Shown here: piece after piece, positions 3,001 through 56,878 of the stretch
How the letters are laid out: the number at the start of each line of letters is the position of its first letter
Numbering within the stretch: the stretch's first letter is position 1
Assembly (NCBI GenBank): GCA_003864495.1
Contig: ML133500.1
Location: 148,710-212,709, forward strand
Direction of reading: 5' to 3'
Source of the DNA: Nemopilema nomurai
Taxonomy: Eukaryota; Cnidaria; Scyphozoa; Rhizostomeae; Rhizostomatidae
DNA: 64,000 nt
Notes under the pieces: model-generated
Told to the model about the DNA's origin: nothing
Database searches by the model: none
Seen by the model: only the letters and a program-made list of their open reading frames with translations
Translations under genes and position numbers: made by a program

Positions 3001-6000
3001 CGCTTGAATGGCAAATGAAACACAGGAAAATAACTGCATACCGGTCAAAATTACATAGGGATCAGAAGTGTTTTTGCTGAAAACATTGATGTCCTTCGCC
3101 ATTAAGTCCTCAGCTTCTACAACTTCGATTCGGAGTATTCCCTGCAAAGATTCAAATCACTTTCATTAGTAAACATTCACAACCTTGATGAGCTTCCACT
3201 TAATTTATATTTAGACTAGAAATATGAAGATAAAGGAAGATTTTGCTTGGCAAAGTGCAAAGTGAATATGTCTAGACGGTCAGCTAAAGAAGATAATTGT
3301 TGGTTTGTTGATTATGTAAAGAGTTTCATTAAAATCGTAAGTGCCAAACACTGCTTTTCTCTGCAGCTCTGGAAGCTGTTTTACTCCGAGTACGCCTTCC
3401 ATTCTAACAACATTTCATAAGAATAAAAAGTATCATATAAAACGTATGCAGGTTTCACGAAGCTTACGTCAGGCAAAGGATACTTCAGTGATTCTAGGTC
3501 GATATCTTTACCAATGGGGATCTTGATACGATTTGGAAGAACAACGAAGCTTGAAATTGCCTCTCTCACAACACAGTGAAGAATGTCGCTGAAAAAAAAT
3601 TGCTACTACTAAAAAAGTGCTTCAATTTTCTTATCAGAAAATTATGATCTTGTTTATCATTATTATACCTATTCTTGCAATGGTATCCCGTTATCCCAAT
3701 TTTCATACCCAGTCCTGTAATTTGACATCCCGTAGTTCAAGCCTTAATTCCTTTGAATAAAAAGTATTTTGTGCTCATTATTTTAGGGGAAAGCTCTTAG
3801 ACTGTCAATCACCACTTAGAAAACATTCCTCTCTCATACTCACCAAAAGATGTTCTGGAGAAAAGGGGACAATTCTTTTAAACAAAATGGATATTAAGAA
3901 AGAACCGTTAAATTTTCTTTGAAAGAAAATGGATACGGCTATTAACATTTTTTGAGAATATCTTGCTCATATAAAAAGCTAAAAAATTGAGTCAGGAAAT
4001 GCTAAATGCTAAACTGAGAGTTTAAACTGCGAAATCCGGTGCATTCTCAAGAACTTTCCTGGTGCAGACGGGCTTCAAGAGTTGTTGTTGAGGAAGTCTT
4101 AGTCAATATCAATACGAGTCTCTCATAACAATGTACAACACACTAATAGTAGAGAGTATGTATAAATTATCAGGAATCATGATTAATAATTTATGAACCT
4201 CAAAGCCCGCCTTTACCAGTTGTTAATAATTACGCTCAGCGATGGATTTTGATTTCTCTTCAGAAGGTTCAAAACGTTTCCATAATGAGGCACTTAAACT
4301 GTCTACAGAAGATAATTCACGTTCATCGCCTATGTTGTCCATCAACCAGTGCAGGGTTTTTTGTGCAAAGGCAATTAAATGATGTTCAAGGTCAAACAAC
4401 AACAGCTGCACTTGTGCAAAAACAATTTTTGAACATTGAAGATTTTCGTTTTTCCAATAAACATTATGCTTCTGCGTTAGACTAGTAAAAGCTTCTAAAA
4501 AATGGAATTCTCCGTAAAGATTTGTTTTCATTTTCCAGCATGTCAAGACAAGTAGACCTTATCGAATTAGCTTCGAAAGAGGCCTATACAAAGGCAGACT
4601 TGAACAAACTAGACGGAATAACAGAAAGGGCCTAAGGTAAATTTCAATTCATTGCTTTCTTAAGACTTTCTGTACAAGACAAATGAAATGCCCTTCTGAA
4701 ATGATTTAAAATGAAGATGAAGAGCACAACTCGAACAGGCCAGGAAAGTAAACAAATAAATGAATGAATGAACAGGTTTATGAACAAATAACAGAATCGA
4801 ACGAATTAAGTAGAAAAGAAAGAGATTTGAGCACAAACATTTGGGCTTCCGCAGATTGCCTAAACGAGAGGACCCTTTCATTACGTAATTTTCTTCTTCA
4901 GTTGTTGGTGAAGCAGATTTTATGATCACGTGGTAGAGGGGGGATCTGATACTTGATGTTTGTAGCTCGCCATGAAACAACTATTGGCGTATCGAACGCA
5001 GTTACCACGAGGGCTTTAACAGAAACTGTGGCGAAAAAACACCCAACACTGTTAGCACGTAGGTTCAACCCATAAATCACCCATTTGAATGGCTGAAAAG
5101 CAGGAGAACAATTATAATGTTGGGCGAATTACTTTCAAAATCCTTGCACAAAACTCTTGCAACAAGACATGTTCCTCACAAGATGAGTTCACTTGACATA
5201 GCGCTATAAGCATTGTTCTAGGTTTGAAATAGGAGGCGGGGGCAAAGTATGCAACAGGTGGCCTAGATTCGCAGGCTGAGTTGCACGCGGAATATTTCAT
5301 TGGATTTCCGCATAGAATGTTTGTGCTCAAATTAGTTTCCCACTGATAATCTGCCCTATGATAGAACAAACAACCAGAATAGTTTAAAATACTGATGCCT
5401 CCAAAACTGTCAATACTAATTCTAATTAACAAGTATCCAAGTTCGTTTCGACTCACTATAATAAAGGACATAATAAATTCGGGCAACAAAATAGCAATTT
5501 CACAAAAGCTAGAAATTGCGGAACCAGTTTTTGCATACTTAAAGTACTTTTTCATCCGACACTCGTCAGAGTGTGCAAACCATGGACAATAACCAAAAGC
5601 TGACGGAATAAATAGTCAGTTGCGGATCGAAAACACTAGAGGATGATGAGCAGAGCGCGTGATTGGTTACAGTTGATCAATCGACGTCACTCAACACCTT
5701 ACTTTTAGATGAGGAACTCTTTCTGTTCACAAAGAATGGGAAATATCATAACCAATCAAACGTTCTTCTAATCACCCTCTAGTGCATTCGATCACACTCT
5801 GAGAAGTATCGGACGAAAAGTATTTCAAGCAAGCAAAAACTAATTCCGCTATTTCTTGCTATTGTGGTGTTTTGTACTGCAAAACACTTGCTCAAAATAG
5901 CAATTGTTTTGTATGGTGATATTTCATTCTTAACATTGACAAAGCGGAAAAATTGTCTTGCGAAAAGCAGTTACCTGAGCCCTGGGACATCAAGGACATT

Positions 6001-24343: not shown

Positions 24344-26073
24344 ATGCCTCCGAAAGAGAAAGTAGCTGGCGTTCACAAAATTATTATGGTTGGAAGCGGC
24401 GGTGTTGGCAAGTCGGCACTCACTCTGCAGTTTATGTATGAAGAGGTCAGTTATGCTTGTTCAATAATTGTAAACACACTGTCAACATTATTATCTAGCA
24501 AGTCCTAACTTATCATAGTTTTATTAGTTATAGGCTAGTTTTGTGTACCATATTTAGCACTATTTGAAAATTTCTTTAAGTCAATCAAGAATCAATAAAA
24601 ACTGAGGAATCTAGGCCAATTTCCTGACTATAAGAGCCTTTCGTTTCCTTATATCAGCCAGCTTACCAGTCAGACATTTGGTTTAAAGAAAAATTTCGTC
24701 ACTTGCTGTATCAATGTTTTGTCGCATTTTGTTGCCCCTGACAATTACCAATAATATTGAAGTTAATGAGTAATACATGAATTGGAGTGGCCGACACTTT
24801 AGAATCACCTGATAAATTTCACCGCGCCCCCTTTGGATAACTTTTTTCCCCAAATCTCTCCTTCCTTCAGATTTAAACTTGGGAACATATGACAATAGGA
24901 GGCAAATTTGAAACCGCCATCTGAAACTTAAACATTTGGATATTTACTTCCATCATCAAGGAAATCCGATTTTAGACAGCGTTTCACACACACCCTGAGC
25001 TTTGGTGTGCCCAGCTTAGCTTCAAATGTGATTCCCATATTTTAAAGCTGCTGAGCTTATATTAACCCATTTATTGCAAAAGTATTGGAGAAGAGTGCTA
25101 AAAGCCTTGTGTTTTTCAAAACATTAAATATCCATAAACTCTAGTGTTTTAGGTCACTCTGGCATTATTTATCATTCCTTTTTTTTTCTTTTCGATGGGT
25201 TTAGAATTTTAGGAAATATACTTTAGGACTCCTGACATTGCAATAAAATAGGCCTAAGGAACTTCTCAAAACTAAGAAACAAGAAAATCATCTTTATTCA
25301 GGAACTACAACAAGCTGGAAATAACTACATTCTGGACCCAGCCCACCATCCAAAAATATCTTCCACCTAAGGATCTTGTTCCACCTATTTCTGCATTTAC
25401 CAGCTTATTCTGTATTACAATGTGAAATGGGTGGATTATCAAAAAAATTTAAAAGCCAAAAAGGTGCTTCATAAATTTATGTTTAGAAGGCTGGTACCTT
25501 TGCAACTATAGGAATTTGCATCATCGAACACATATTAGGAAAAGTATACTTATTTGTTTTTAATCTATTTTATGTTAGTTTGTGGAAGACTATGAACCTA
25601 CAAAGGCAGATAGCTACAGAAAAACAGTTACGCTAGATGGTGCTGAATGCCAAGTAGACATTCTAGACACAGCAGGACAAGAAGATTATGCAGCCATTCG
25701 AGACAATTACATCAGAAGTGGTGAAGGATTCCTCTGCGTGTTTTCCATTTGTGAACCAGAATCTTTCAGCTCAACCTCAGAATTAAGAGAGCAAATCTTG
25801 AGAGTAAAAACAGAGGACAGTATACCATTTATTTTAATTGGAAACAAAGTTGACCTTGAAGAGAAGAGGCAAGTTACCCATGACGAAGCTGAAGCAACTG
25901 CCAAAGAATGGAATGTTCCTTACCTCGAAACATCAGCAAAGACCAATGTTAATGTTGAGAAGGTTTTTTATGATTTAATGAGAATGATCAGGTCTCGAAA
26001 AACAGATGAAAGCTCAAAGCCTGGTGCAAAGAAGAAAGGGAAAACAAAGAAAAGGAAATGCATCATTCTGTAA
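24344..26073 (+). CDS. RAL: Ral small GTPase (RalA/RalB type), two coding exons
   Basis: Ras-family switch that acts with the exocyst, RalBP1 and phospholipase D in vesicle delivery and actin control. Exons 24344-24445 and 25579-26073 join exactly after MYEE to give 198 residues. Motifs: P-loop GSGGVGKS (17-24), switch I with the Ral-specific [11 protein letters not shown] (39-49, Mg-binding Thr42), DTAGQE (64-69), NKVD (123-126), ETSAK (151-155), a Lys-rich tail and the C-terminal CAAX box CIIL, whose last Leu predicts geranylgeranylation. The N-terminus is a few residues shorter than in human RalA. The single intron (about 1.1 kb) sits just after the P-loop exon. Identity in the G domain is high throughout and no break is seen. 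The gene is transcribed away from the SH3BP5-like gene. Confidence 0.98.
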
Positions 26074-49962: not shown

Positions 49963-50263
49963 TACCGTAAATCCTCGAATTAGCCCCCTGGGGGCTTATT
50001 TATTTTTGACATTTTTGGATGGGGGCTTTTTCGAGGGGGGCTTATAAAAATTTTTGTAACATGTCACATAAAAATATATTTTTTGAAATTTCTTTCTTTT
50101 CATAATATAAAAAATAGCCCAAGTATAAAGTAACATTTGATCAAATTATTAACAAAAATTTGTGTGGTAATTCACTAAAATGCCAAAGGCAACCTCAGGA
50201 GTCAAAAATTAACAAATCGAGGGGGGCTTTTCGAGTGGGGGGCTTTTTCGAGGATTTACGGTA
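49963..50263. mobile_element. MITE with terminal inverted repeats and TA target duplication
   Basis: Element 49965-50261 (297 bases) starts CCGTAAATCCTCGAA and ends with the reverse complement. Each end continues into GCCCCC / GGGGGC tracts, so the imperfect inverted repeats are about 24 bases. TA flanks it at 49963-49964 and 50262-50263. The interior is AT-rich and non-coding, with additional internal copies of the G-rich end motif. The TA duplication suits Tc1/mariner-type or related mobilisation, which is inference. Confidence 0.8.
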
Positions 50264-50406
50264 TGTTAATACCCTTGTCTAGGAAAAGAGACGCAAAAGC
50301 GGGTATTCCTTAATTTTTGAAACTATTCAGGATGGGAAGGTTATTGATTCACTCTATTGATTAAATTAAAATTTAATCTTTATTATCGTCACAACTTTCG
50401 TTTACA

Positions 50407-50689
50407 GCCTCTGCGAGGGGGTCCTGATAAAGACTGGATCGAGCGTTTTATTGTTCTCGTTCTTGAAAGGCAGCAGCCTGCTGACATTTTTGAGCGCCAT
50501 TCGCAGATCCTTCTCCTGGCGGGAACATTCAAACTGAGCGCAAAGGTCAACTTGGCAACAAGATGGAGCCGGATGCACAAGCCCAAAGGAAGCGTAGAAT
50601 ATGGCAAGTTGTGTCAAGGACTGATGGAAAGAAATGGAATACGAAGAATCAGAATAGGAAGACAGTGTGAAACCAGTACTTTTCATCGG
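50407..50689 (+). other. Orphan exon candidate, strong splice signals
   Basis: A 283-base stretch, richer in G and C than its surroundings, follows a strong acceptor (TTTCGTTTACAG) and precedes a strong donor (gtaagtac). One plus frame is open throughout, reading DKDWIERFIVLVLERQQPAD, IFERHSQILLLAG and a basic C-terminal part. The opposite strand is open too, so openness alone is weak evidence. A second plus frame has an ATG (MEPDAQAQRKRRIWQVV) but stops before the donor. I do not recognise the product, and no partner exon is visible on either side. It could be an exon of a long non-coding transcript that would span the downstream palindrome. Confidence 0.35.
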
Positions 50690-52639
50690 TAAGTACAGTT
50701 TTTTTATAGATGGGCCTAAGAATTTGTCTAGCACCGAGGCCTTCGACTGAAGTGGCTTATATTCAAGTGCTTTTTCTCTAAAACTGGACATGTGATTACA
50801 TAAAAGGGCGAATAGGTTTTGAAGCTGTAAACAGAAATCAATAACTTATGATGCAAGTTCATTGCTCAGTATTCCCATGTCATATTAAGAAGAATGCTAT
50901 GGATTCAACTTCGAAAGGACTAGCCACATGTTGTCTGTATGGATGCTTGTATCCTTTGAATTCTAATAGTCAACTTGGAAAAATTGTTCGATCGCACGAC
51001 CACTGGCTGGAGGCATGTTTTCAAACCTAGCATTACAATGGAGGCACTACAATATGTTTTGATTGATTCGAACTTTTTCCCTAAAATTTTCGTGTTTCAT
51101 TTCTCAAAAGATTGAAGATGTGTGTCAAAAATGAATGGTTTCTGTGAAATAAAGCAATTAAGTGTAAGGATGTAACATGCCCTTTCTATTACATCCTAAA
51201 GTTTTCTAGTATTCTAATTTTACACAACTGCTATAAGTTTTTACTCCACACATTGCTGGCATTTATCTAACATGTAACATAACAGTGTTATACCTGGAGG
51301 CATTTTGGCAACAGTTTTCCATGGTCTAAGGCATTAAAAAATTTATTCCAGCCCTGATCATCATTCAATTTACTGCTAGCAGGGACATGTTTGACTTATC
51401 TTAACGCTATATTTGAAAAGTGACAGAAACCTTCTTTGTTGTATAGCACTTAATCTTCCAAATACACTTTCTATTGATTAACACATTTACGAAATACATT
51501 TTCCCTGGGTAGCATTGTAATGGAGCAGCTGTTTGCCTAATTTATTTTGGCTTGAATCTGTTCTTTGGCACATTTGTGATTCTTCACAGTGACTTATCTA
51601 GCACTTATCCAACATTTTCAAGCACATGTATTGAAAAAGATTCTTTTTGTTATAAAAGAAAGACTCACTGAACCTTTCTTCTTCAAATTCTGATGCTCCT
51701 AGACGGGACAAATTATTAGTTTTTAAGTCACCAGCAGTTGTTTTTTCACATCAGCTTCATCCATCAAAGCTAATGCACTACTCATCTTGTTAGGACTTAC
51801 TTAAATTCTTTATTTCAGGAGTTTTGCTCAGAAGTCAAATTTTTGTTAGAAGTTAGCTGCTTATAAATTCTAGAACTATCAAATTGGTTTTTTATCCTCA
51901 TGATGTTCTGCAATTTTCTTTTGTATAATATTTGATCATCAAAATTGTGCTTGGTGACTCTAGTTCTGCCCTGGCATCCATAGAGCTGCATATTTGTATG
52001 TGCCTGTGTGGATTTGCTCTTTAGAAATATTTATTTTGTTTAACTATAAGCATTAATCTTTTTTCCTTAAAAGTTTGCTGGCAAGCATTTGGTTCATTTG
52101 TCGCTAAATAATAATCATAATATTGCTTCCTTCTGATGATTGACTAGTGAACAATTTTTGCCTTCAACCTATCCATCTAGATTTCTGATTATCTATCCAT
52201 CTAATCCATCTAGATTTTATTTTGGCATTATGCAAAATTATCTTTCGTATTCCCATTCTCTTTTTCGATGTTCCGAGTTAAGGTTGTACCTAAGCTAAAA
52301 TAATATCTACAAGGATAGGCAATTTCAATTTTTAATTACATTATATTAAAAAGTTTGCCATTATTTCAAAAAAATGAAAGTATCTCCGAGTTGTAGGCTG
52401 AACTAGCTTTTTCAACTAAAAGGGGCTGACTATAACAGCTTCCCAAAGGCTTTACTCAGAGCAAGGTTAGGTAGTTGAAAACAGGCTAGAGTGCTGTGTG
52501 TTTGTTGGCTAACATTCCAACCCTTTACATCAACAGCTTACTTATAAGATCACATTGCCCTAATTTTTCCAAGTAGTCATAGATTTTGTCTACATTTACT
52601 GCATGACTGTGTAACTTGCATAATATGAAATACCTCAAA
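50690..52639. other. T-rich sequence without gene
   Basis: About 2 kb with stops in all frames and no identified repeat. It may be an intron or non-coding transcript downstream of the orphan exon. Confidence 0.45.
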
Positions 52640-53285
52640 AAGCAACTACTAAATCAGATAATATAGCAAAAGTAGCTTTGCACGTATGTAGATTCTATAT
52701 CCAGCTTGATTATGTAGAAAGTAGCTGGTGCAAATAGCCAAGTCTGTAGTTGCTTGAACTCAGATAGAATGTTGTCTTAAGCGTTTCAGGAGTTTTCTTA
52801 GGCATTTTAAATAGCTTTTCAAGGGCATATGAAAAGGAGCTTGTTGAAGAAACATATAAGGAGCTTGTTGAAGGAAACATTTAAGGTAGGAGTTTGAAAA
52901 CCTTTAAGCACTTGTCTTAGAATGTATAGAAGGTAGCTATTTGCATTGATTGGACTGAAGACAGCTATTTAAGGCGAGAAGTGAAGTATATGCTAAAGAT
53001 AGAGGCAAATAACAGTAGCTTTTTAGGGACAAATGAAAGCAGCTGCTTCAAGAAAGCAGATAGAAGGTAGCATTCTAAAGACCTAAAGCGGTAGCTAATC
53101 ACGTGTATAAAGAAAGTGTCTTCTTCTGTCATGACTTTAACGTAAGTAAACATTAGCTAAATGCCGGTAATTGAAACATAGCTACTTACAAACGCGTGGT
53201 CATTAGCTTTAAAAGAATAAATTATGGTTGCCACTTAGGGATCAAAGGAGAATAGCGCCTTAAGCACATTACGAAAGTAACTACA
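52640..53285. repeat. Degenerate outer part of the palindromic tandem array
   Basis: Recognisable but strongly diverged units (AAAGTAGCTG, GGTAGCTATT, GACAGCTATTTAAGG, CAGTAGCTTTTTAGGG) recur about every 25-27 bases and become more regular toward the right. No mirrored counterpart is seen beyond 55435. Confidence 0.6.
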
Positions 53286-55435
53286 CCAAGGCAGATTGAA
53301 ATTAGGTACTTCAGGACCATCCAGAAAGTAGCTACTTGAAGGTTCATAGAAGGCAACTATCTGAGGGCATATACCAAATCGCTGCCTATAGATAGATAAA
53401 AATAGCTAGAAAGTAGCTCCAGGGACATATAAGTAGTAGCCACTTAAGGGTAGATAGAAGTAGCTACTTAAGGGTAGATTGAAAGTAGCTACTTAAGGAC
53501 ATATAGAAATTAGCTACTTAATGGTAGATAGAAAATAGCTACTTAAGGACATGTAGAAATTAGCTACTTAGTGGTAGATAGAAAATAGCTACTTAAAGAC
53601 ATATAGAGAGTAGCTACACAAGGGTAGATTTTACGTAGCTACTTAACAGCATATATATTGTAGCTACATAAGGGTAGAAAGAAAATAGATACTTAAGGGC
53701 ATACAGAAATTAGCTACTTAATGGTAGATAGAAAGTAGCTACTTAAAGATATATAGAGAGTAGTTACTTAAGGGTAGATTGAAAGTAGCTACTTGAGGAC
53801 GTACATATAGTATCTCTTTAAGGTTAGATTGAAAGTAGCTATATAAAGACATATATAGATTAGCTACTTAAGTGTAGGTTCAAAGTAGCTACTTAAGCAC
53901 ATATAGAGAGTAGCTACTTAAGGGTAGATTAAAAGAAGCTACTTAAGGACGTATATATATATTAGCTACTTAACGACGTATATATATTAGCTACTTAAGG
54001 TTAGATTGAAAGTAGCTACTTAATGACATATATAAGTTAGCTACTTAAGTGGAGATTCAAAGTAGCTACTTAAGGACATATAGAGAGTAGCTACTTAAGG
54101 TTAGATTGAAAGTAGCTACTTAAGGACATACATATAGTAGCTACTTAAATGTAGATTAAAAGTAGCTACTTAAGGACGTATAGAGGGTAACTACTACTTA
54201 AGGGCAGTACCATAAGCAGCTACTTAGTACCTGTACCTTAAGCAGCTACTTAGTACCTGTACCTTAAGCAGCTACTTAGTACCTGTACCTTAAGCAGCTA
54301 CTTCGTACCTTTACCTTAAGCAGCTACTTCGTACCTGTACCTTAAGCAGCTACTTCGTACCTGTACCTAAGCCATTAAGTACAGGTAGGAAATAGCTGCT
54401 TAAGGTACAGGTACGAAGTAGCTGCTTAAGGTACAGGTACGAAGTAGCTGCTTAAGGTAAAGGTACGAAGTAGCTGCTTAAGGTAAAGGTACGAAGTAGC
54501 TGCTTAAGGTACAGGTACTAAGTAGCTGCTTAAGGTACAGGTACCAAGTAGCTGATTTAGGTACAGGTACTAAGTAGCTGCTTATGGTACTGCCCTTAAG
54601 TAGTAGTTACCCTCTATATGTCCTTAAGTAGCTACTTTTAATCTACATTTAAGTAGCTACTATATGTATGTCCTTAAGTAGCTACTTTCAATCTAACCTT
54701 AAGTAGCTACTCTCTATATGTCCTTAAGTAGCTACTTTGAATCTCCACTTAAGTAGCTACTTTATTTACGTCATTAAGTAGCTACTTTCAATCTACACTT
54801 AAGTAGCTATTATATGTATGTCCTTAAGTAGCTACTTTCAATCTACCCTTAAGTAGCTACTCCCTATATGTCCTTAAGTAGCTACTTTCATTCTACCCTT
54901 AAGTAGCTACTCTCCATATGTGCTTTAGTAGCTATTTTCTATCTACCATTAAGTAGCTAATTTCTGTATGCCCTTAAGTATCTATTTTCTTTCTACCCTT
55001 ATGTAGCTACAATATATATGCTGTTAAGTAGCTACGTTCAATCTACCCTTGAGTAGCTACTCTCTATATGTCCTTAAGTAGCTATTTTCTATCTACCATT
55101 AAGTAGCTACTCCCTATATGTCCTTCAGTAGCTACTTTCAATCCACCCTTAAGTAGCTACTCCCTATCTGTCCTTAAGTAGCTACTTCATTCTACCCTTA
55201 AGTAGCAACTCTTTAAGTATCTATTTTCTTTCTACCCTTATGTAGCTACAATATATATGCTGTTAAGTAGCTACGTTCAATCTACCCTTGAGTAGCTACT
55301 CTCTATATGTCCTTAAGTAGCTATTTTCTATCTACCATTAAGTAACTAATTTCTATATGTCATTAAGTAGCTACTTTCAATCTACCATCAACTAGCTCCT
55401 TTCTATATGTTCTTAAGTAGCTGTTTAATCTACCC
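53286..55435. repeat. Giant inverted repeat (palindrome) built of about 25-bp tandem units
   Basis: Left arm (about 53286-54370) and right arm (about 54375-55435) are reverse complements with almost no spacer, centre at about 54372. Outer parts of each arm alternate two 25-base units, TAGCTACTTAAGGGTAGATT plus five bases and TAGCTACTTAAGGACATATA plus five bases. The inner part of each arm uses a different unit of about 26 bases (CAGCTACTTCGTACCTGTAC plus CTTAAG). Each unit contains most or all of the self-complementary 12-mer AAGTAGCTACTT. Arms match unit by unit: about 110 bases around 54120-54230 and their mirror at about 54515-54625 differ at one position, so this is a true inverted duplication rather than independent palindromic units. 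Resembles foldback-type elements with subrepeated arms, or a satellite array. Confidence 0.9.
54974..55345. repeat. Direct duplication inside the right arm, offset 239 bases
   Basis: The segment starting TTAAGTATCTATTTTCTTTC at 54974 recurs at 55213 and stays almost identical for about 130 bases, through CAATATATATGCTGTTAAGT and further. The left arm has only one counterpart (about 53610-53740 reversed), so the duplication happened after the arms formed. Confidence 0.75.
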
Positions 55436-56878
55436 TAATGTAATGCAACGTAGCCCTACAAAGTAATAGCAAAAACAAAATAGACAAATGTAGTAATATA
55501 TTATAGTAAGAAGTTGTAATGAAATATGGTGGCAATGTGCATAGAAGTTGAAACGACAGAAGACTGGCGTTAATGACCCATGTAAGTTATTCCAAACAGT
55601 TATTCAGAATACCCTATGTCGCCATCTTAACCGTGTATCTTGTGCTATTTCGCATAAATATCTACGATGGTTCAACAATTAATTGAAACATGTTTCTCTG
55701 CAGTTTTCCATGAGTCATTGTTTTGCTAATTTGACTTTCTCTTCTTGAATTTCTGAGCCAAAAATGCTGAAACCTATTGGAAAGCCTTCAGGGGTGATTC
55801 GATCAACCAAAGCAACTGATGACAGTGGCCTTTCGCACGTACCATCGCATCTACCCTTTCGTTTATAATAATTCTGCTATCTATTAAAACAGGGTAGCAT
55901 TAATTATGACCCGTTTCATGGTCGGTACATATCTCGCAATCTTCAAATAAAGTACGTTTAGGTGTGAAGTTAATTAGAAATCGCTTGAAATGTTATTTTA
56001 CTGGAATATATGAAAATCCAATATTTTTGAGGGAAGCATGCGACAAACTGATACTTCTTATCTCGAGAGTAGCTTATAGCATATAACAAGAATGATGTCC
56101 AAACATAAACATAATAACGCGAATGATTTAGCTTGAATCATTTATCGATATTACAAATTTTACGCATTCCACGTTATGTATTCCTTCTTCCATGCCACCT
56201 TATTCTTTCTTCCGTCTCACATTGCCTCTTTTAAGCAAAACTAACTTTTAGAAGAAATCCTAATTTTGGACTCAAGTCTCTTCATAGAAGGTATAGCATA
56301 AATTTCTATAATAACTTGCAATCGAGTCCACATTAAGTCACAAAAGTTTTATGGCACAAAAGTATCCAATGGCTCAATATCGAGGTGCAATCACCAACAG
56401 CTATTTTCTGTTTGTAAAAAGAGCAGTTAGAACAATTTTAGCGAGTATTCACCTTTCACGGATTAACTCATTGCAGTCGAGGACAATATTGGAAGTAAAA
56501 CAATGAATCATGAAACAAAATATGAAAGGGCCCTGAGTACTAGGCCAAAGGGAGATATTTTTGCTTCACTACTAGGGCAAATAAAGCTCCAACTGGAGCA
56601 GAAACCCCACTAGTTGCAATGTTAAAACAGGCACTGCCGTCTTATCTCTAGATTTTACACAAATATGCGGGTGTGTTCACTATTTCGACCAAGTTTTAAG
56701 CACGTTCCCTCAAGAACAAAGCAAATTGGTTTGGTTGGTTTGAATTTATGTAAATTCCCTCCGATGTGAAATGAAATCGAGAATTCATGCACTCTCGTTT
56801 TCGATCAGTGCACACTGAAGATCATCTACCACAACAACAAATGTTACCTCTCCAAACTCGTGATTGATTACCTTGACA
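55436..56878. other. No gene seen
   Basis: Non-repetitive AT-rich sequence between the sharp right edge of the palindrome and PHYHD1, presumably including the PHYHD1 promoter. Confidence 0.5.

Follow-up and report, generated by a model that had tools for sequence, protein, structure and literature searches.

Structure of the palindromic locus

The window analysed here, a DNA stretch of 64,000 nt (G000:C134:148710-212709), carries a palindromic minisatellite located downstream of a conserved block, designated Y. The following features were delineated at this locus:

50403-50803, plus strand: block Y, conserved, apparently noncoding and promoter-like, with constant side and orientation in the 9 informative loci
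50804-52600, plus strand: stretch from Y to the array, which shares colinear blocks with other copies at about 61-74% identity in the case of the window
52600-53410, plus strand: left arm, degenerate outer units, delineated partly by eye
53411-54186, plus strand: left arm, outer 25-bp units (50-bp dimer)
54187-54215, plus strand: left outer/inner junction, mirrored at 54574-54602
54216-54363, minus strand: left inner 26-bp units, in the orientation opposite to the outer units
54364-54387, plus strand: asymmetric core TACCTAAG-CCA-TTAAGTACAGGTA
54388-54573, plus strand: right inner 26-bp units
54574-54602, minus strand: right junction, mirror of the left junction
54603-55436, minus strand: right arm, outer 25-bp units, including a direct duplication of about 125 bp

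Elsewhere in the window, an exon of a Ras-family GTPase is present at 25579-26070 on the plus strand (Pfam Ras, E 1.7e-45; nearest to Ral by eye), and GC-rich short repeats of TTTTTCGAGGGGGGC lie upstream of block Y, at 50012-50043 and 50221-50252.

Comparison of the window with its own reverse complement revealed an inverted self-match at 53390-55422 with 82% identity, and the core pattern was matched at 54353-54387, with a chance expectation of 0. These matches, together with the tandem units, confirmed the palindrome reported in a first-pass annotation of this DNA, which had described two arms of about 1.06 kb. The right arm is bounded, its units ending at 55436, and the palindrome is plain at 53411-55436; the left arm is longer than described, since beyond the regular units, which start at about 53411, degenerate units decaying past 53286 extend outwards to about 52.6 kb (the far part was traced by eye).

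From the core outwards, each arm consists of 26-bp units GAAGTAGCTGCTTAAGGTACAGGTAC, a junction, and 25-bp units alternating as a 50-bp dimer; the inner units differ from the outer ones and both kinds are mirrored, as the annotation had also stated. The consensus of the 26-mers aligned to that of the 25-mers of the same arm with a score of 20.0 in reverse complement versus 11.5 otherwise. Because the two kinds of units in one arm are opposed to each other, the palindrome is a nested object, reading outer-in, inner-out, core, inner-out, outer-in. Just outside the inner units, the two arms of the window are unlike at one position, as judged by eye, and the duplication in the right arm, likewise read by eye (54978-55102 and 55217-55341), has no visible counterpart in the left arm.

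The units had been described as centred on a self-complementary 12-mer, AAGTAGCTACTT. Strict self-complementarity is not the feature that is best kept, the outermost pair of this 12-mer being broken in 420 of 1061 outer units. The best-kept stretch, common to the inner units, is CCTTAAGTAGCTA, every base of which is retained in 86-99% of the same 1061 units; these were picked by likeness to the 12-mer, and retention at its positions is therefore inflated.

Distribution of the palindrome in the genome

The genome searched comprises 212.9 Mb in 226 contigs, among which the mitochondrial marker COX1 was not detected. With the left arm of the window as query, at least 297 matches were obtained (40 of 174 candidates were scored). 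Searches with the core pattern gave 72 rows for a 3-nt spacer and 31 for a 4-nt spacer, and removal of 13 and 9 reverse readings left 59 and 22 places, respectively. At least 81 cores on 34 contigs are thus recognised with up to three mismatches, the patterns requiring half-sites within this limit and more diverged cores escaping them. The palindrome, for which the first-pass annotation had raised the possibility of dispersal, is indeed dispersed, and a unique curiosity is ruled out by the many copies; with so many cores on so many contigs, a chimeric read is very unlikely as its source.

Among gaps between neighbouring cores on the same contig, 31 of 47 do not exceed 30 kb (median 14.0 kb), and contig C72 carries five cores spaced 11.4-12.0 kb apart. 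Up to nine arrays of about 2 kb each are present per contig, and 16 of the 34 contigs carry a single one. Cores on the same contig often have the same spacer: CAG was found in eight clustered cores of C23, CCA in four of five cores of C120, CGAA or CAAA in eight cores of C92, and ACAG in three cores of C95, while it is variable on, for example, C70, C72, and C129.

For detailed comparison, 22 copies were used: the window, L009-L028, and one copy of C23, the centre of L010 being placed by hand. Common anatomy, comprising 25-bp units, opposed 26-bp units, a core of 24-25 nt, and the mirror image, was observed in 21 of them; L010 lacks the core. An inverted self-match was present in all 20 of the 9.9-kb regions around copies. 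L024 and L025 are near duplicates, and most of the other copies are clearly different in sequence. The numbers of inner units are unequal between the two arms of copies. Given these differences, the unequal unit counts, and flanks that are not mirrored, an artefact of assembly or of foldback reads is very unlikely.

An exact 35-mer search yielded no match in viral and prokaryote collections, and no Rfam match at gathering thresholds was obtained for the window and 12 loci. Literature dealing with palindromes and inverted arrays, with foldback elements, with hairpin RNA, and with jellyfish satellites was searched by title and abstract opening, mostly outside subscription papers, and no description of this palindrome family was found among the matches listed.

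Block Y and the larger repeat unit

Block Y, of about 400 bp, was detected at 10 of 22 places; its side and orientation relative to the palindrome are constant in all nine informative ones, and the tenth, L029, lies between two palindromes. The identity of Y is about 60-74% between most groups, and the region from Y to the palindrome consists of blocks that are colinear between distant copies, with identities of about 58-77%. The side away from Y is common within some groups, with few matching pairs across groups. The flanks of many copies are homologous to one another, and on one side they are colinear over 3 kb.

When the genome was searched with the Y block of the window, at least 40 matches were obtained (40 of 90 candidates were scored). 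Among the matches listed, the nearest besides the query itself were three at 84-89% identity, the others being at 72-78%; 22 of the 40 have a core within 10 kb downstream, at a median distance of 5.6 kb, and three have a one-strand array within 16 kb. The other 15 have neither a core nor a one-way array among the matches listed, and all three of these that were fetched do carry arrays. In L033 the array is inverted and its 26-mers are one-sided; L034 carries seven core hits in a run and L035 eight (about 11 copies by TRF), neither with a palindrome. Of the three one-strand arrays, that of L036 (C7) was read: behind Y, about 118 dimers of 49 bp follow one another in a single direction, with none of the GTACCTGTAC/GTACAGGTAC 26-mer motifs.

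Long stretches in which all listed matches to the 25-bp satellite are on one strand and leave out the 26-mer end of the query lie at C7:251984-257676, C7:304133-311486, C47:374387-379582, and C72:966218-972076; the first of them was read and is a one-way array, and more Y copies are present on the contigs of these stretches. The short array of L035 is adjoined by an independent inverted repeat (L035:1016-2039 and 3425-4447) with copies of about 1 kb that are 98% identical; portions of this stretch have matches in the downstream flanks of L011, L024, L025, L026, and L015. The flanks of L012 and L013 contain a 320-360-bp repeat, about 70% identical, inverted on the two sides of the palindrome at unequal distances. 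In the right flank of L025, a tandem duplication of about 2 kb adjoins the palindrome, and none is present in L024 over the compared stretch. Reverse-transcriptase fragments (Pfam RVT_1) were identified at L011:9216-9896 and L031:7976-8641, and one copy adjoins a rhodopsin-type receptor exon (7tm_1).

In the window, Y contains CTGGCGGGAACATTCAAAC at 50516-50534 and a splice-donor-like GTAAGTACAG that closes the stretch 50681-50698. The donor-like GT[AG]AGT is retained in 14 of 16 rows of the Y alignment, from which the L010 row was left out as non-homologous, and GGCGGGAA, CGCCAT, and TGATTGACAG are present in Y of some copies; we take these to resemble E2F, YY1, and PBX/PREP sites. By its sequence, the block resembles a promoter joined to a first exon. 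A protein-coding exon is argued against, since Y looks open in single copies but indels, as seen by eye, shift the frame between copies.

Such a block upstream of a palindrome could belong to a family of hairpin RNA genes, in which Y would serve as the promoter and first exon, and a transcript through the palindrome would fold and be cut to small RNAs. The single orientation of Y upstream of the palindrome in all nine informative loci, the retained donor-like sequence, and the presumed factor sites would agree with this, and hairpin RNA loci of Drosophila likewise have a promoter-like block with a long inverted repeat on its downstream side. However, in the 16 of 22 copies whose orientation was given by Y or by homologous flanks, 282 G-U and 277 A-C mismatches between arms were counted in the sense direction. 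The pattern of an RNA hairpin under constraint, with pairing kept and G-U tolerated, is thus not seen, and a selected hairpin is less likely because G-U mismatches are no commoner than A-C ones. Unlike the Drosophila loci, the jellyfish palindromes lack the mismatch bias expected of RNA pairing, and other units carry one-way arrays (the runs of seven and eight hits and the roughly 118 dimers). We consider a hairpin RNA family unlikely, although the mismatch comparison bears on a selected hairpin and cannot exclude transcription.

Comparison with foldback transposons

It had been proposed in the first-pass annotation that the palindrome could be a Galileo/FB-like element with the arms as its termini. 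According to published accounts, Tetris and Galileo of Drosophila possess long inverted arms with internal tandem repeats, the number of which shifts independently in each arm, and occupy independent insertion sites with 7-10-bp target-site duplications, Tetris also having an outer flanking domain (PMC4079207, PMC3573991). The arm repeats of Tetris are described as forming separate one-way satellite arrays as well (PMC4079207), and recombination and conversion of the long arms are proposed for Galileo (PMC3573991). The jellyfish palindromes are similar in their long inverted arms of internal tandem repeats, the unequal repeat number per arm, the dispersed copies, and the one-way arrays. They differ in occupying a similar place in a larger unit, in their unmirrored flanks, in having 25- and 26-bp units in two opposed orientations, and in the fixed core.

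Independent sites with unrelated flanks were not found; the flanks are homologous among many copies and colinear on the upstream side. No inverted match between the 1-kb flanks was detected in 19 of 21 copies, and the other two, L016 and L023, had matches of 49 and 43 bp, respectively. A separate outer domain is not obligatory in Galileo and FB. The ends of the arrays, viewed by eye in one copy, are too frayed for a target site to be delimited. No transposase candidate was noticed when the ORFs of 110 aa or more in 20 loci were inspected by eye, and two ORFs of a C72 unit that appeared hAT-like by eye gave no Pfam family at E 0.1 (12 ORFs were scanned against Pfam in all). By eye, no sharp common edge was visible upstream of Y; a seemingly sharp edge at this position in C23 appears to be that of an adjoining reverse-transcriptase element, and L027 and L019, again by eye, are alike beyond it. 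On these sequence characters, a free-standing foldback transposon, with the arms as subrepeated terminal repeats of an FB-, Galileo-, or Tetris-like DNA element, is disfavoured, and we regard it as very unlikely.

Comparison of arms, junctions, and cores

The identity between the two arms was 0.92-1.00 in the first 200 bp from the centre and 0.74-0.96 in the last bin, the first exceeding the last in all 22 copies; the bins derive from local alignments whose extent varies, and the first consists mostly of inner units. The mirrored order of unit variants, noticed in the first-pass annotation for the window, was examined in all 22 copies: in 16 of them, none of 300 shuffles of the dimers reached the observed score, and in the other six (the window, L009, L011, L012, L013, and L027) between 1 and 6 of the 300 did so. 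With 2 of 300 shuffles reaching it in the window (z 2.5), the unit-order evidence is modest for this copy alone.

Within a copy, the 60-nt junctions of the two arms were 94.7% identical, versus 67.4% in 908 comparisons of copies from different contigs, and the within-copy value exceeded every between-copy value in 20 of 22 copies. L019 ties, and the junctions of L010, the copy lacking a core, are poorly mirrored (0.64). In the next 300 nt beyond the junction, identities were 85.9% within and 75.6% between copies. The inner 26-mer consensus is identical in 20 of 22 copies, with 99.3% identity between contigs. By these values, the centre is uniform, but individual copies or clusters have arms and junctions of their own, which are nevertheless mirrored. 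The arm identity decay, the unit order, and the junctions support the earlier proposal that an inverted duplication or gene conversion between arms took place after the array had diversified.

Arms more alike within than between copies, as in a palindrome undergoing arm-to-arm conversion, are thus seen in 20 of 22 copies by junction but not in the closest copies. In four-way counts of sites at which arms are alike within a copy and unlike between copies versus the reverse, the ratios were 30:2 for L011/L012, 38:18 for L015/L026, and 10:4 for L011/L013, whereas the trend was opposite for L024/L026 (11:24), L025/L026 (9:20), and L019/L028 (1:12). The closest pairs, L012/L013 (0:127) and L024/L025 (0:159), show no arm renewal. 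Because of these two pairs and the three with the opposite trend, arm conversion must be slow or patchy.

The core was in orientation B relative to Y in 13 and in orientation A in 9 of 22 Y-core pairs, two of which, on C17, are 8-9 kb apart and possibly mispaired; orientations are mixed inside the C23 cluster. A narrower, overlapping set of 16 copies, oriented by hand using Y or homologous flanks, gave 12 B and 4 A. Since the wider pairing gives 13 to 9, we do not claim a strong polarity. In the C9 pair L012/L013, the cores are opposite although the flanks are 97-98% alike. An element of about 2.1 kb was also observed at L014:6831-8937, in the right flank of L017, and at 2250-4369 of L031 (C23). 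It splits a satellite arm in L014 and, in C23, the stretch from Y to the palindrome.

A uniform centre may also be read in terms of selection on a protein-binding array, with CCTTAAG[T/C]AGCTAC, spaced 25-26 bp, binding an insulator, CENP-B-like, or origin-type factor, and selection fixing the core and inner units. The constancy of the inner consensus would agree with this, as would core half-sites well kept around a variable spacer of 3-4 nt, a pattern partly built into searches that demand half-sites within three mismatches. A binding role would also be compatible with CCTTAAGTAGCTA being the best-kept stretch and common to outer and inner units. However, the number of units ranges from a handful to hundreds, the motif bias derives partly from the selection of units, and we know of no protein that binds this motif. 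Judged by sequence features, a selected binding array seems distinctly improbable.

Alternatively, the core and inner 26-mers could be a small mobile or homing palindrome that invades one-way arrays and turns each of them palindromic. The uniform core and inner units, combined with copy-specific yet mirrored arms and junctions, would be consistent with this, as would the core-free one-way array read in L036 and others suggested by one-strand matches. Against it, the spacer variants resemble mutations of one ancestor and are often common along contigs, and we know of no mobility factor for the core; to this selfish core we give very little credence, slightly less than to a foldback element. In a related reading, the core and inner units would be a self-propagating palindrome seed, spread between units by break repair, that folds a local one-way satellite into mirrored arms and later flips in place, which we consider conceivable but not likely.

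Proposed renewal of the palindrome from its core

The patterns to be explained are the common anatomy, the same side of Y wherever it can be told, near-identical inner units, private but mirrored arms, outward decay, and core inversion. The common centre with copy-private mirrored arms suggests that the repeats renew from the middle outwards. The explanation that we favour, with confidence little better than even, is that a duplicated noncoding unit carries a minisatellite whose symmetry is restored again and again by copying that starts at the core.

According to this scheme, an apparently noncoding unit, composed of the promoter-like block Y and a 25-bp minisatellite about 2-9 kb downstream, would have multiplied by local tandem duplication and been dispersed over many contigs. 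In many units, the minisatellite would have turned into a nested palindrome around a fixed core; short, largely self-complementary units may help nascent strands to fold back and start the mirroring. The centre of the palindrome could be prone to breaks or cruciform extrusion, and repair starting there would copy one arm onto the other, leaving arms in register and most alike centrally. Repair may also copy cores between units, spreading one inner 26-mer genome-wide, while recombination between inverted inner arrays would occasionally invert the core, and slippage would alter the number of units in one arm at a time.

Under this reading, mirrored private junctions and outward decay would result from copying between arms, the uniform inner unit from exchange between units or from selection, and core flips from recombination between inverted inner arrays. 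The scheme requires no separate function, and the repeats may be transcribed or bind proteins. Free exchange between contigs is precluded, since the core spacer is often contig-specific. Several observations count against renewal from the core: the closest pairs of copies show no arm renewal; the uniformity of the core and inner units would also be explained if these were under strong selection; L010 and the tie of L019 do not conform; and 15 of the 40 Y matches have no array among the matches listed, and of the three fetched, all with arrays, two are without a palindrome.

Palindromes of the sex-chromosome type, with arm-to-arm gene conversion, are large and carry genes, and their arms are more alike than are different copies. 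The jellyfish palindromes are similar in the latter respect, but their arms are a minisatellite, and identity drops outwards from the centre. Layered centromeric satellites resemble the palindromes described here in that mirrored layers of greater divergence flank a uniform centre, but the palindromes form arrays of only about 2 kb, at most nine per contig.

Long palindromes are usually considered unstable. Here, a family of them occurs in graded states, from a few satellite units through a long one-way array to full nested palindromes, and thus represents a natural series for the formation, renewal, and inversion of palindromes, in which conversion, selection, and a selfish core may be weighed against one another at a constant centre.
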